The notes beneath the pieces are model-generated. The model was not told where the DNA came from. It did not search any database and saw nothing but the letters and a program-made list of their open reading frames with translations. Below are positions 9,001 through 12,091 of a stretch of 64,000 nt of DNA, piece by piece. The position numbers and the translations under genes are program-made. The stretch comes from an uncultured Chlorobiaceae bacterium. Its GTDB lineage: Bacteria > Bacteroidota > Chlorobiia > Chlorobiales > Chlorobiaceae. The number at the start of each line of letters is the position of its first letter. Position 1 is the first letter of the stretch. Location: positions 1 through 64,000 of the forward strand of contig CAIJVD010000027.1 of assembly GCA_903824045.1 (NCBI GenBank). The letters run 5' to 3'.

Positions 9001-10705
9001 CAACAGAAGTGCCAAGACCAAGATTGTAGTTATATGGATGCGTTGTTTGATAAGCTTCGGCCTGCCCATAAATCAGACTCAACACTCCGCCGCCTGTAAT
9101 CGACACATTGGCGTTGAAGTTAATATTGTGCCAAGCGTTGAGGGTCAGCAGATATCCGCTTGCCCATGTCACTGGTGTATTGATATTGATATCCCCATTG
9201 CCACTGCCGGCTGTTCCGGAGTTGGTCGTCGTGATGATGACGTTTCCTGTACTCAACGCGGTTTGCAGGGTAGTGACATTAACCGTCGAGGTTGCGGACG
9301 ATGAAGTGGGCGTGTATGTCCCACTGGCATTGGCATAGTTTGCATCCGAGGAGGATGAAATCGTCACATCGGCTGGATCGAGCAGCCAGTTGCCGCTATT
9401 GCCGTTGGTTGATAGGGTGCTGACACGGACGCTGTCGCCAATGTTCAGCGTGTGCCCCGAGGTTTCGATCTTGCCGCCGTCGCCCGATTCGCTGCCGCCC
9501 TTGGCGAGAATCTCACCATTAACGCGGGTCACGCTGCCGTTATTGGTGACATCAGACCACAACACCGCCGTACCACCGTTACCGCTTTGGGTCGCCGAGA
9601 CATCAATCTTCGCGCCCCGCTCCATCGTCACCGTGGTGGCCTGGTGCAGGGCGCCGCTCCCCTGCCAACCGCCGCCAACCAGCACCGTGCCGCCGCCGGT
9701 TGCGCCTGAGGCATCGAGCGTGCTGCCGCTTGCGAGAGTGATCTGGTCGCCGGCCAGGGTGATTGCGCCGCCTTTAACCCCTGATACATCCAGCGTGCCG
9801 CTGTTGGTCACGCTGTTCCCTTCAATAACGATCTCGCCGTTGCGCTCAACCATGCTGCCGGCGCGGACGGTGCCGCTGTTGTTCACCACCGTGGCAAGCA
9901 GGGCATCTGCCGCGCTGGCAGTCATAACCACCGTGCCACCATCAGCCTCGATGACTCCGCTGTTGCTGACCTGCGCCTGATAGGCCGCTTTATCAACCGT
10001 GATGGCCATCAAGCCGTTGGGGTCAAAGCCAAGGGTAATTGCCTCACCCGCTCCAAGTCCTGTTGAGCCTTTGGTGGTAACGATGGTACCGCTGTTTTCT
10101 ACCGAGTTGCCGAGCAGTGCCACGAATCCACCGGTCAGGCTCCCCTGGTTGACGACGGAACCTGCCGTACCCTCTTTTAAGAACGAATATTTCTCAGCAA
10201 GGAAGTCGCTGTCCTTGATGTTGAGGGTGGACGCAACCAGAGCACCAACATTAACGCTGGCTCCAGGTGCAAAAAGCACGCCGGAGGGGTTGACGAGAAA
10301 AACCTTGCCGTTGGAGGTGAGCGAGCCGAAGATCTGAGATGGGTTGTTGCCGACAACGCGGTTGAGAGCTGCGGAGTTGACGCCGGGCTGGTTGAAACGC
10401 ACCGATGCCGCCGAGCCAATATCAAACCCCTGCCAGTTGGCAATCATCTTCTGGGTGGACTGGTTGACCGTCATCTGGGTCCCGCTGGTGACTACGCTGG
10501 CGCTGCCGGAGGTTACCTGCCCTCCGGTCGGGAGGGCTCCGGAGTCAAGCGCATAAGCCGGCCCGCCTGAAGCAAGCATGGCTGCAAGCACTGCAATACT
10601 TTTGAGCGGTGAAGAAGGTACTTTTCCATTCCCTTTGACCTTTTCAGAGACGACGATCCACCGCTCTTTGGTTTTGGACCAGATGAGGTTGTATATCCTA
10701 TTCAT
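1..10705 (-). CDS. Giant filamentous-hemagglutinin-family exoprotein (TpsA-like adhesin), C-terminus outside window
   Basis: One minus-strand frame stays open from the ATG at 10705 to the window edge (at least 3,568 codons); the phase is the same at the start, in the middle (around 5160) and at base 1. Residues 1-28 resemble an extended signal peptide (MNRIYNLIWS, then a K/E-rich stretch). A hydrophobic core follows, with a likely cleavage after AYA (about residue 52). Residues about 55-320 look like the two-partner-secretion hemagglutination domain (QGFDIGSAASVRFNQP; VNPSGVLFAPGA). Then come GLUG-type repeats (NSYATGSV, GGLVG; about 8100-8850), MBG/YDG repeats (ITPKALTVTG, KTYDGT; about 5350-7750), autotransporter-type repeats (GTLTLSGANTYTG, TTISAGTL; about 2850-5150) and long 103-residue repeats. 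Function inferred from family: a secreted beta-helical surface adhesin exported by a TpsB-type porin, which is not in the window. No convincing Shine-Dalgarno lies before the start; a C10 run abuts it. Confidence 0.93.
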   Translation of the reverse strand, partial: MNRIYNLIWSKTKERWIVVSEKVKGNGKVPSSPLKSIAVLAAMLASGGPAYALDSGALPTGGQVTSGSASVVTSGTQMTVNQSTQKMIANWQGFDIGSAASVRFNQPGVNSAALNRVVGNNPSQIFGSLTSNGKVFLVNPSGVLFAPGASVNVGALVASTLNIKDSDFLAEKYSFLKEGTAGSVVNQGSLTGGFVALLGNSVENSGTIVTTKGSTGLGAGEAITLGFDPNGLMAITVDKAAYQAQVSNSGVIEADGGTVVMTASAADALLATVVNNSGTVRAGSMVERNGEIVIEGNSVTNSGTLDVSGVKGGAITLAGDQITLASGSTLDASGATGGGTVLVGGGWQGSGALHQATTVTMERGAKIDVSATQSGNGGTAVLWSDVTNNGSVTRVNGEILAKGGSESGDGGKIETSGHTLNIGDSVRVSTLSTNGNSGNWLLDPADVTISSSSDANYANASGTYTPTSSSATSTVNVTTLQTALSTGNVIITTTNSGTAGSGNGDININTPVTWASGYLLTLNAWHNINFNANVSITGGGVLSLIYGQAEAYQTTHPYNYNLGLGTSVDLLGSGAQLYTKEGNNGTQMSYTTITDRTGLMGINNNVNANYALGANVDLTSTPFTPINGGYSGIFAGLGHTISNVVINTLNGVSGNPDVGLFSWVGYSTFRDFGLVGGSVSAAGSRYIGALTGSTGSLSIVSNVYSTLSVTGDTNGAGGLVGSFSGSMINSYATGSVMGGLTADQGTGGLVAYLGDGGTISKSYASGNVTGQNNSGYIGGLAGFSIGVISDSYATGNVIGSNVVGGINTAAVGGFVGMFSYTPPRNGTAPYAIKSCYASGNVTAGRDGWIGGFVGAVAGPTINLYWDNESTPGLAGYGSAWGAAAVTGLTHAQMNAESNFTGFDFNNTWFSTGTDSPKLQALAQLVRVSANSASMVYGAGVLPTLSYSVTGGGTGTFSTAPTETTAALITSPVLSGGYAITVSGGTFSDSNYFVKYIPGTLTVTPKALTVTGTAFSDKVYNGNTTATLTGGSLSGVLDGDTSNVTLTQGGTFASKDAANSIAVTAADTLTGTAAGNYSLTQPTGLTGKITAKPVTLTAPALTKIYDGGTSYTAIAGDLTTLSNLLGVSGDTVTGITLAYTDKNAGTSNKTVSFTGATVSVPTNYTFTYVGNSTSTITPKALTQSGLTVPASRAYDGTAAAVVSGAAALQSAEATGTGTTADGIPYTGDQVSLTGTSVGTYNSPNVGATTVSFSGLSLTGAQAGNYSLTMQSPASASITTNAITVTANNQSRTYGSANPTTGAVTLTGTLGSGDALGMATVTSAATSTTAAGSTPSLTPSSQAFTTGSAANYAITYSPGTLSITPRPLTLSASKTYNGTVDLSSVNLGNLAGTETLTYSGATASSKDFGANNYINAITLSAGTNGGVTSNYTLPELTAASANNAVTINKATLTVTGSKTYDGTSNMVGSLTLGGFVGSETVGYSVASASSAHVAATNKYVSAITLTNDTGSSGGLASNYQIPASYNASTNHIDITAATLTPTLASGTAKVYDGGTSTPLTPGYSGLVTGDTAATLTYTSRAYDHADVLTAANVTVSGLAISGITGGNTSAVTDYSLSTTSLMTAATITPKTVALAGIKTYDGNATTSGTTFTVTNKIGSDSVGFTGTATLASKDNGTRNITSMDTLASINANYTTAAGSGTITINKAALTVTNTTVADKTYNGNTTATLSAGTLVGVVSGEDVTLTQAGTFSSKNVGTGLSVTANDSLSGTAISNYTLTQPTGLTGEITRLNSVTWTGGATGNWLDSTKWDGGAVPDKSNVATVVIPSGTTVSFNNTLGGTAEAGPVFVDTISMSGTSPSVTLALSAGTLNVATSLNLSGLTMTGGSIGGAGSLTTTNSFSQTAGTITSTGALSFTQTSGTLTLGNISGFSSLGVASAGNITQTSSTAIGGNGSLTKSGTGTLTLSGANTYTGGTTISDGTLALGSSGAIGSSGTITFGGGTLQSSSSNTSDYSGRFSNAVSQSYKLDTNGQSVTLATALTSNGGTLTKSGNGTLTLTGTNTYSGATTISAGTLSIGSGSTTGSVVGDIVDNAGLVINRTDALSYNGTISGSGTLTKSGTGTLTLSGTNTYSGLTTISTGVLKLGAAGDGTNTPLGTTGSGTIVSASGASLDLNGFTLGTAEALTLNGTGVAGGGALTNSSATASTYSGLITLGSGSSIVASSGNIILSNIGTITGSGFGLTLDGTAAGSSLASIIGTGAGTVTKTGTGSWTLSGANTYTGLTTISAGVLRAANNTALGTTAGGVSVTSGAALELSGDITIGAETLTLSGTGTGAVTGALRSISGNNTYGGAITLGAPTRINSDSNTLTLSDTIGGNTQNVTFGGTGNIASSGIIGTTTGTLTKDGNGTLTLFGANTYSGGTTVSAGTLTLGNTTALGSGTLTDNSAVNVASGITTITAQGLAGTGTLSLSNLATTPVALTVGANNSSTAYSGVLSGLGSLTKAGSGTLTLSGPNTYTGATTVNQGTLAAGVLSVGGTSGAFGNNSAVSLANTSGVTLDITGYNTQIGSLTGGGINGGNVILGSATLTVGGDNTTPLSYAGVISGTGGGVTKIGNGTLTLSGINTYTGITTISAGTLSLATAAGTGSGNISLGGGTLAATDNVDLGSRTVTLSADSGLSEASGKTFSGGVFSAAGSTLTLTGPGNFSLTAATNNFGTVNASGGNVTLVDGTGGIDLGNITATGTLNVASTDGAITGSGVVAVTGVTTLTAPAADITLNTATNNFGTVNASGRNVTLVDGVGGIDLGTTTATGTLGVTSTAGAITDSGTATVALTASLSGGANAITLDTASNSFTGAVTLNNSGAHDVALTNNRATILGASSVGSGTLTISSNGAITETGGVTQATGAGAATFNAGANPITLTQANDFTGTVTLSNSGTNNAAVTDANALILAGGTFGGNLDVIASGAVTQNAALYVTGTTSVNAGTGSVTLNTTANDFGGALTVAGGTTAIKDANTLTAHLATGATDLTAVTTLKADGTTGNLTTHSAGLTFGDAATTVTGNLAATSTGTVDQTGKLVVTGTSNIAAGSNSVTLADVTNDFGGALTAVGGTTSIKDANSLTAHLTTGTTDLTAATTLKADGTTGNLTTSSAGLTFGDAATTIAGNLAANSTGAVEQSGSLTVTGTSSVSAIDRNITLTNDNNDFGGAITASGKDISLTDRNLITVAINASNLHVTTGVGGITGGVQQAGPIVVSDTAIFTASTAINQDALLTDANNDFGGLVTFDNANNGNWRNVSLKDANALNVSLSTTGVTALTAVGGLTVDGTSGNLTTNSAGLTFGAAPTTVGDLVATSSGPVTQSNTLTVTGTSNINAGSNSVTLSDPGNDFVRALTLTGGATTIKDKNDLTANLTTGVTVLTAVGGLTVDGTSGNLTTNSAGLTFGAAPTTVTGDLLATSSGPVTQSNTLTVTGTSNINAGSNSVTLSDPGNDFVGALTLTGGATTIKDKNDLTANLTTGVTVLTAVGGLTLDGTSGNLTTNSAGLTFGAAPTTVTGDLLATSSGPVTQSNTLT
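2..1780 (-). repeat. Tandem 309-bp (103-codon) repeats inside the adhesin gene
   Basis: Units starting at 2 and 311 are nearly identical (only a handful of substitutions over 309 bp). The unit at 620 is similar for about 150 bp with one codon deleted, and then diverges. More diverged copies with about the same period are visible around 1160, 1470 and 1780. The period is a multiple of three, so copy-number change would keep the frame. Units encode beta-helix-type sequence with motifs such as GDLLATSSGPVTQSN and GNLTTNSAGLTFG. The array probably continues left of the window. Confidence 0.9.
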
Positions 10706-10715
10706 GGGGGGGGGG
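10706..10715 (-). promoter_or_regulatory. Homopolymeric C10 tract directly against the adhesin start codon
   Basis: Ten consecutive G on the plus strand (C10 on the coding strand) lie immediately 5' of the ATG at 10705. The tract fills the space where a ribosome-binding site and its spacer would sit. An in-frame TAA stop lies just upstream of the tract, so with ten C the ATG at 10705 is the first usable start in frame. Runs of this length are prone to slipped-strand mispairing in other bacteria; an effect on expression here is inference. Confidence 0.75.
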
Positions 10716-11065
10716 CGTTATTCGATTTCTAAAATTAACCACGCGACGATAGTTTCTTTTTCCTTTTTGAATTGAATTCTTTGACAACCTCGTCTGTCAA
10801 ATCGCGTTAATAACGAGTTTTGTTTTGAACAGCTACTGCATTCATGATCGGAGGAATCGGAGCACAGGCGTTACGAACGATTAATGGTTATAAATTCAAC
10901 CGGCAGGCCTTTTTCAGGCAAGTACAATGGTCAACCACTATGTTACGAGAAAATCATTCGTGAGCTGATTTATGATTTATACCATCAACTGACTATTTTA
11001 TACCATCTTTGGTTGCTACCCTTCGAGGTGTGAGTTATCCCTTTGATTTGTTACTCTAAGCTCTC
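10716..11065. promoter_or_regulatory. Divergent control region between adhesin and AraC-type regulator
   Basis: This AT-rich stretch of about 350 bp holds no gene. Visible elements are a dyad TTGACA-N8-TGTCAA at 10781-10800, a degenerate inverted copy of the regulator half-site near 10883-10896 (ATGGTTATAAAT), and an exact 11-bp direct repeat, TTTATACCATC, at 10976-10986 and 10997-11007. The dyad also contains a -35-like TTGACA on the plus strand. No convincing -10 element could be assigned, and transcription starts are unknown. Confidence 0.55.
10976..11007 (+). promoter_or_regulatory. Direct repeats with 21-bp spacing, probable AraC-family operator
   Basis: TTTATACCATC occurs twice, at 10976-10986 and 10997-11007, with starts 21 bp apart (two helical turns). 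This same-face direct-repeat layout is typical of AraC-family half-sites. It ends 58 bp before the ATG of the AraC-type gene, so autoregulation is the simplest reading; control of the divergent adhesin is also possible. Confidence 0.55.
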
Positions 11066-12091
11066 ATGAAATCGACCATTATCAGTACCCGATTTAACTG
11101 GATCGCAGACAGTACACAGCCTTCATTTTTCGACGACCCATTGCTGGATATAGAGCGAACGACGATGCCTATGCCTCGGAAGATTGGGGATGCTTCGTTT
11201 ATTTCAGTCGCTCTGCCGATGAACATGGTTGTCCGCCGCGGTTATCACCATTTCAGGCCCGAAGCTGCTGGCAAACTCCAGCCCATGTTTCACTGTGTGG
11301 AAGAGTTTGTTGAGCCGGCGCTTTGTGTTCAATCGCCAAAAAAAGGGAGGGTCATTTTAGAGGAGAGACGTGTAGGGCAGGTGTTCGAGTTTGGACCATC
11401 AGGGTGCCTTTTTCAGCATATTGATGCTTTTGATAACCTGCCGACAGTGGATACCAGCGAAGATTTTGAAGTGACAGTGCTCATTGCAGGGAAGTCAATA
11501 CTCGATACACTGCTTGGGGAAGAGGAGTGCGGGATGCTGCTCAAAAACATGAACATAGCCTCTGTGCCTTCCGCTTCCGTCCGGAAAATACCCTACCCCT
11601 TAAGGAACATCCTCTATTCGTCGATCCCTGATCATCTGACCGGTACTATCCGTAAACTGTTTATGCAGAGCAAGGTGCTTGAGTATCTCTGCGGGCTGGC
11701 AGAGCACTTTGCCTGTACAGTTGTACCAGAGCGGCAGGAGCAAAACAGGATTGAGGTGGCGCTGAAAGAGATTCATGAAGAGCTACTCCTGCTTGAGGGA
11801 AAGCTACCGATGCTTAATGAACTGGCGATGAAGTACAATATGACGGCACAAAAGCTTGGGCTTGAGTTCAAAAAGAGGTATGGACAATCTATCTACCTCT
11901 ATATTAATGAGCTTCGGCTCAATGAAGCTCGTGGCGCTATTCTCCGTACCGACATTCCGTTGAAGGCGATTGCAACAAAACTGGGCTATTCACACGTAAA
12001 CCACTTTAGCCGGGCCTTCAGCAAACTATTTGATTGCTCTCCGGGAAGCCTGAGATGTGTAGTGGACCCCGATTTTCAGACAGTTGATTAA
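11066..12091 (+). CDS. AraC-family transcriptional regulator, PchR-like
   Basis: 341 residues. The last ~110 form an AraC/XylS DNA-binding domain: a first helix-turn-helix around LPMLNELAMKYNMTAQKLG and a second around PLKAIATKLGYSHVNHFSRAF, followed by FDCSPGSLR. The N-terminal ~220 residues are a ligand-sensing region. Their linker (YPLRNILYSSIP, then KLFMQSKVLEYLCGLAEHF) resembles PchR-type regulators, which in other bacteria respond to siderophores; the ligand here is unknown. It is transcribed divergently from the giant adhesin and has a 21-bp-spaced direct repeat just upstream. The final ~11 codons (after GSLR) coincide with what looks like the left end of an IS3-type element, so the native C-terminal tail seems to have been replaced. 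The helix-turn-helix core is intact. Confidence 0.85.
   Translation: MKSTIISTRFNWIADSTQPSFFDDPLLDIERTTMPMPRKIGDASFISVALPMNMVVRRGYHHFRPEAAGKLQPMFHCVEEFVEPALCVQSPKKGRVILEERRVGQVFEFGPSGCLFQHIDAFDNLPTVDTSEDFEVTVLIAGKSILDTLLGEEECGMLLKNMNIASVPSASVRKIPYPLRNILYSSIPDHLTGTIRKLFMQSKVLEYLCGLAEHFACTVVPERQEQNRIEVALKEIHEELLLLEGKLPMLNELAMKYNMTAQKLGLEFKKRYGQSIYLYINELRLNEARGAILRTDIPLKAIATKLGYSHVNHFSRAFSKLFDCSPGSLRCVVDPDFQTVD

Follow-up and report, generated by a model that had tools for sequence, protein, structure and literature searches.

Introduction

Contingency loci are known mainly from host-associated bacteria and are defined by length variation that has an effect on expression, a long tract being one of about 8 or more. 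Slippage of mononucleotide tracts of ten bases is known from other bacteria, a point on which the initial annotation of the locus described here was right. The TpsA gene fhaB of Bordetella pertussis phase-varies via a ten-base G tract (nt 1,078-1,088), and mixtures of tract lengths have been shown in B. pertussis isolates (PMC7446907). The promoters of hmw1A and hmw2A in Haemophilus influenzae contain heptanucleotide repeats, some 100 bp upstream of the genes, in many copies and variable between strains (PMC2651432). Poly-G/C tracts lie in the promoters of opc, porA and Treponema tpr (PMC7864442), and a G-tract in the 5' UTR of M. tuberculosis espR alters translation (PMC11898584). A literature search on phase variation in Chlorobium found nothing relevant.

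Here we describe a run of ten C residues (C10) at the start codon of an adhesin gene of an uncultured Chlorobiaceae bacterium, within a window of 64,000 nucleotides (the whole stretch of DNA analysed). What the initial annotation had observed here, namely an adhesin gene with C10 at its ATG and no Shine-Dalgarno (SD) sequence, stands; the phase-switch mechanism that it proposed is not established.

The adhesin gene and its start codon

The frame that begins at the ATG at 10705-10703 is open for 3,568 codons to base 1 of the window; contig C27 begins at the same base, and the gene is therefore truncated, with its 3' end missing. Domain searches placed an ESPR (PF13018, 2.6e-10) at residues 1-46 and matched the TPS secretion domain (PF05860, 1e-37), adhes_NPXG (TIGR01901, 9.5e-23) and YDG (8e-20); the protein therefore has the arrangement by which TpsA proteins are recognised, an ESPR or signal peptide followed by a TPS secretion domain. 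Because of these matches the product is very probably a TpsA-type, filamentous-haemagglutinin-like adhesin and the ATG is very probably its true start, the position at which alignment of the ESPR with many relatives also places it. The earlier description as a giant adhesin was apt. The closest relative shares 59% protein identity. Candidate TpsB partners, proteins with POTRA_2 matches above cut-off, are encoded on contigs C26, C15 and C23, and none on the adhesin's own contig. The coordinates of the locus are summarized in Table 1.

Table 1. Features around the start of the adhesin gene (window coordinates)
Feature	Position	Strand	Evidence or remark
Probable TpsA-type giant adhesin, 3,568 codons, 3' end missing at contig end	1..10705	-	ORF and domains
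ESPR (extended signal peptide region), residues 1-46	10568..10705	-	PF13018
C10 homopolymer (+ strand: G10), at -10 to -1 relative to the adhesin ATG	10706..10715	-	
TAA stop in adhesin frame, 15 nt before ATG at C10	10718..10720	-	
Upstream GTG (-37 at C10), candidate start without SD	10740..10742	-	Frame analysis
Divergent intergenic region, 350 bp	10716..11065		No sigma-70-type promoter or terminator match
Divergent AraC-family regulator	11066..12091	+	

The adhesin gene runs off the contig start, and the assembly was probably broken by its internal repeats, which are YDG domains and repeated NTYTG-type units. A further ESPR, 81% identical over 48 residues, is found in a 140-aa ORF of the same genome (L069:3137-3559, contig C4); a TPS domain is absent from this ORF, whose product appears to be a truncated or different ESPR-bearing protein.

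The plus strand reads ...ATTCAT GGGGGGGGGG CGTTATTCG..., with G10 directly after the CAT at 10703-10705; on the coding strand C10 is followed by the ATG with no gap. The sequence and an exact search of the genome, which gave a tract length of exactly ten, thus confirmed that C10 adjoins the start codon of the adhesin. The reported lack of an SD at normal distance likewise agrees with an anti-SD duplex energy of +0.1 kcal/mol. The initial annotation had, however, set the tract between a ribosome-binding region and the ATG, a placement that is not supported: no SD-like site was found within 50 nt of the ATG, and most relatives also lack an SD. The closest SD-like element of the leader, AAGGA, ends 55 nt upstream.

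Comparison with relatives and with other tracts

We compared 41 distinct ESPR-type starts, including the adhesin itself and its own-genome paralogue. Most of them belong to genomes of the Chlorobium group; a few were taken from bins labelled Geobacter or Desulfuromonadales. None of the 40 related starts has a G/C run longer than 4 in the preceding 20 nt, so the tract appears to be private to this lineage, and a conserved switch was rejected. A search for C7 or longer before ESPR-like starts in 394 genomes of the phylum, made with a narrow pattern, returned only this gene. DNA similarity between the adhesin locus and its relatives stops at the start codon. With an anti-SD duplex of -4 kcal/mol or better as the cut-off, an SD is missing in 33 of the 40 related starts (34/41 counting the adhesin); SD-less initiation therefore looks usual in this family, and its occurrence here was discarded as a special feature.

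In the whole genome (2.09 Mb), 13 separate G/C tracts reach 9 bases or more, 6 of them 10 or more, while base composition (independent bases, G=C=0.25-0.27) leads one to expect 12-23 and 3-6, respectively. The number of long G/C tracts is not above chance in this genome, and tracts of at least 10 occur in 55/65 genomes of the genus. The position of the tract is mildly unusual, the probability that one tract directly touches a start codon being about 0.01 for tracts placed at random and 0.03-0.09 for tracts confined to intergenic DNA, as judged post hoc and assuming about 1,950 genes and 10-15% intergenic DNA. No over-representation in surface genes was seen among the 13 tracts, most of which lie outside such genes. 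Counts near the expectation from composition, together with the mixed gene classes, led us to reject a genome-wide contingency set. Nine-base tracts stand 5-7 nt before the likely start codons of L015, an ORF of 347 aa that matched no Pfam family, and of an ACT-domain protein (L017), and the other long tracts lie in a hybrid histidine kinase ORF, in a glycosyltransferase ORF, inside a 797-aa ORF that we take, without a family search, to be a DNA polymerase B, or far from starts.

A more conventional frame-switch site than the adhesin leader is a G9 (L013:2480-2488) within the ORF of a family 2 glycosyltransferase in this genome. The longest G/C tract of the genome, a G13 (L010:2508-2520), precedes the start of an 85-aa ORF by 36 nt; this ORF matches TPR weakly, and a gene for IMP dehydrogenase is close by.

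In sister species C8-C9 adjoins the apparent starts of genes for CobA/CobO (L121), a SAM hydroxide adenosyltransferase (SAM_HAT, L132), an ABC permease (L128) and two unassigned, possibly exported proteins; the first three, genes of housekeeping type, have C8 at the ATG. The same geometry thus occurs in genes for which surface phase switching is hardly a sensible explanation.

Leader, promoter region and reading frames

The leader frames were read for tract lengths C5-C16. The adhesin ATG and reading frame are intact at every one of these lengths, which gives no OFF state for the ATG and leaves all lengths compatible with expression. Upstream of the ATG the adhesin frame is closed at C10 by the TAA of Table 1 and at C11 by an in-frame TAG at -27; at C9, C12 and C15 it is open to a GTG (-36 at C9) and a TTG (-81), so that C9 and C12 would permit an extension of 12-13 (GTG) or 27-28 (TTG) residues before the ESPR (12 or 27 at C9). 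The GTG frame ends at C10 in a TAG at +6 to +8, overlapping the adhesin start, and at C11 in ATGA at the adhesin start, and it joins the adhesin at C9 and C12. An upstream ORF from the GTG at -37 or the TTG at -82 might accordingly overlap the adhesin start at C10 and C11 and fuse with it at C9 and C12, a reading drawn from this frame analysis. Coupling or fusion would need upstream initiation, but both starts are non-ATG and neither has a well-spaced SD, and overlaps of this size easily arise by chance; we regard such coupling as very unlikely.

RNA structure prediction gave an identical minimum free energy for C9-C11 in a short leader, and a predicted AUG accessibility of 0.38-0.51 for C7-C13 over three leader lengths. 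An RNA-structure switch was rejected, the prediction showing next to no length dependence from C7 to C13. No sigma-70-like promoter was recognised in 10600-11200, and a simple promoter-spacing switch was set aside; Chlorobium promoters may differ, so that the tract could act on transcription, e.g. by lying at a promoter or transcription start.

Homologues of the divergent AraC-family regulator (42-48% identity) occur in 15 other genomes, and one more genome has a broken, partial match. We asked whether an orthologous locus might combine the adhesin with this AraC neighbour, but could not establish that the adhesin neighbourhood is shared. Two exact 11-bp direct repeats, TTTATACCATC, at 10976-10986 and 10997-11007 (+ strand) and 21 bp apart, precede the AraC-family gene; no second pair of this kind occurs in the genome, and the repeats are a plausible AraC-type operator. 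A diverged 33-nt relative is present in A+T-rich intergenic DNA on G003 contig C42.

Interpretation of the tract

We consider it likely that the tract is lineage-specific, probably slippage-prone and mostly incidental. The C10 run would have arisen in this lineage, where the DNA 5' of a TpsA adhesin gene diverges fast, and its length suggests that it changes by replication slippage. Translation would start at the ESPR ATG without an SD, as the sequences indicate for most relatives. As the start codon and frame survive every length, the tract would mostly be incidental to expression; gain or loss of one C should bring small, graded changes at most, and a modest effect on adhesin expression is possible. 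Three points count against the incidental reading: the start-codon position at the largest adhesin (probability about 0.01-0.09), the precedent of fhaB, a phase-variable TpsA gene (PMC7446907), and the possibility that the tract coincides with the promoter or the transcription start.

In a contingency locus, slippage of C10 would instead alter leader spacing or the choice of start site by RNA polymerase and render the adhesin graded or ON/OFF. Surface adhesins are a typical target class, and precedents are available in opc, porA and tpr (PMC7864442), espR (PMC11898584) and hmw1A/hmw2A (PMC2651432), but here there is no SD whose spacing could shift, no sigma-70-like promoter, no sensitivity of predicted RNA structure to tract length and no relative that has kept the tract, and we judge such a locus unlikely. 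The last two observations also tell against the simple phase switch of the initial annotation, as does the fact that no length removes the ATG or shifts the ORF, only the optional C9/C12 extension from an SD-less GTG or TTG being available. Known from one genome only, of a kind expected by chance and with no clear length-dependent ON/OFF, the tract can at most be put forward as a candidate switch of a kind already known. A miscalled homopolymer whose true length is not ten is conceivable in a draft of 37 contigs, homopolymers being error-prone, but several tracts of different lengths in the genome have normal flanks and the ATG and frame are intact at any length, which makes an artefact highly improbable. 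We also think it very unlikely that a green sulfur bacterium here provides the first case of a giant two-partner adhesin under a homopolymer phase switch, with the tract at -1 to -10 making translation of the signal peptide alternately independent or coupled (C10/C11) and fused (C9/C12).

Comparison with known systems

If the tract did switch adhesin expression, the range of contingency loci would widen to include a free-living phototroph and a leader position that has no SD. As it stands, the locus illustrates how a striking start-codon homopolymer can prove ordinary after relatives, genome-wide counts and frames have been checked. With fhaB (PMC7446907) it shares a TpsA adhesin gene and a ten-base G/C homopolymer, but the fhaB tract is part of the coding sequence and its slippage truncates FHA, whereas C10 lies outside the ORF and truncates nothing. 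As in hmw1A/hmw2A (PMC2651432), the repeat is upstream of a TpsA adhesin gene; unlike theirs, it is a mononucleotide tract, it is located at -1 and it comes from a single genome. The noncoding homopolymers 5' of opc, porA and tpr (PMC7864442) and of espR (PMC11898584) are similar in kind, but they overlap a promoter or transcription start, and both variation in length and effects on expression have been demonstrated for them, whereas C10 is known from its sequence alone. C10 resembles the homopolymer contingency loci only in its composition and in the class of gene that it precedes.
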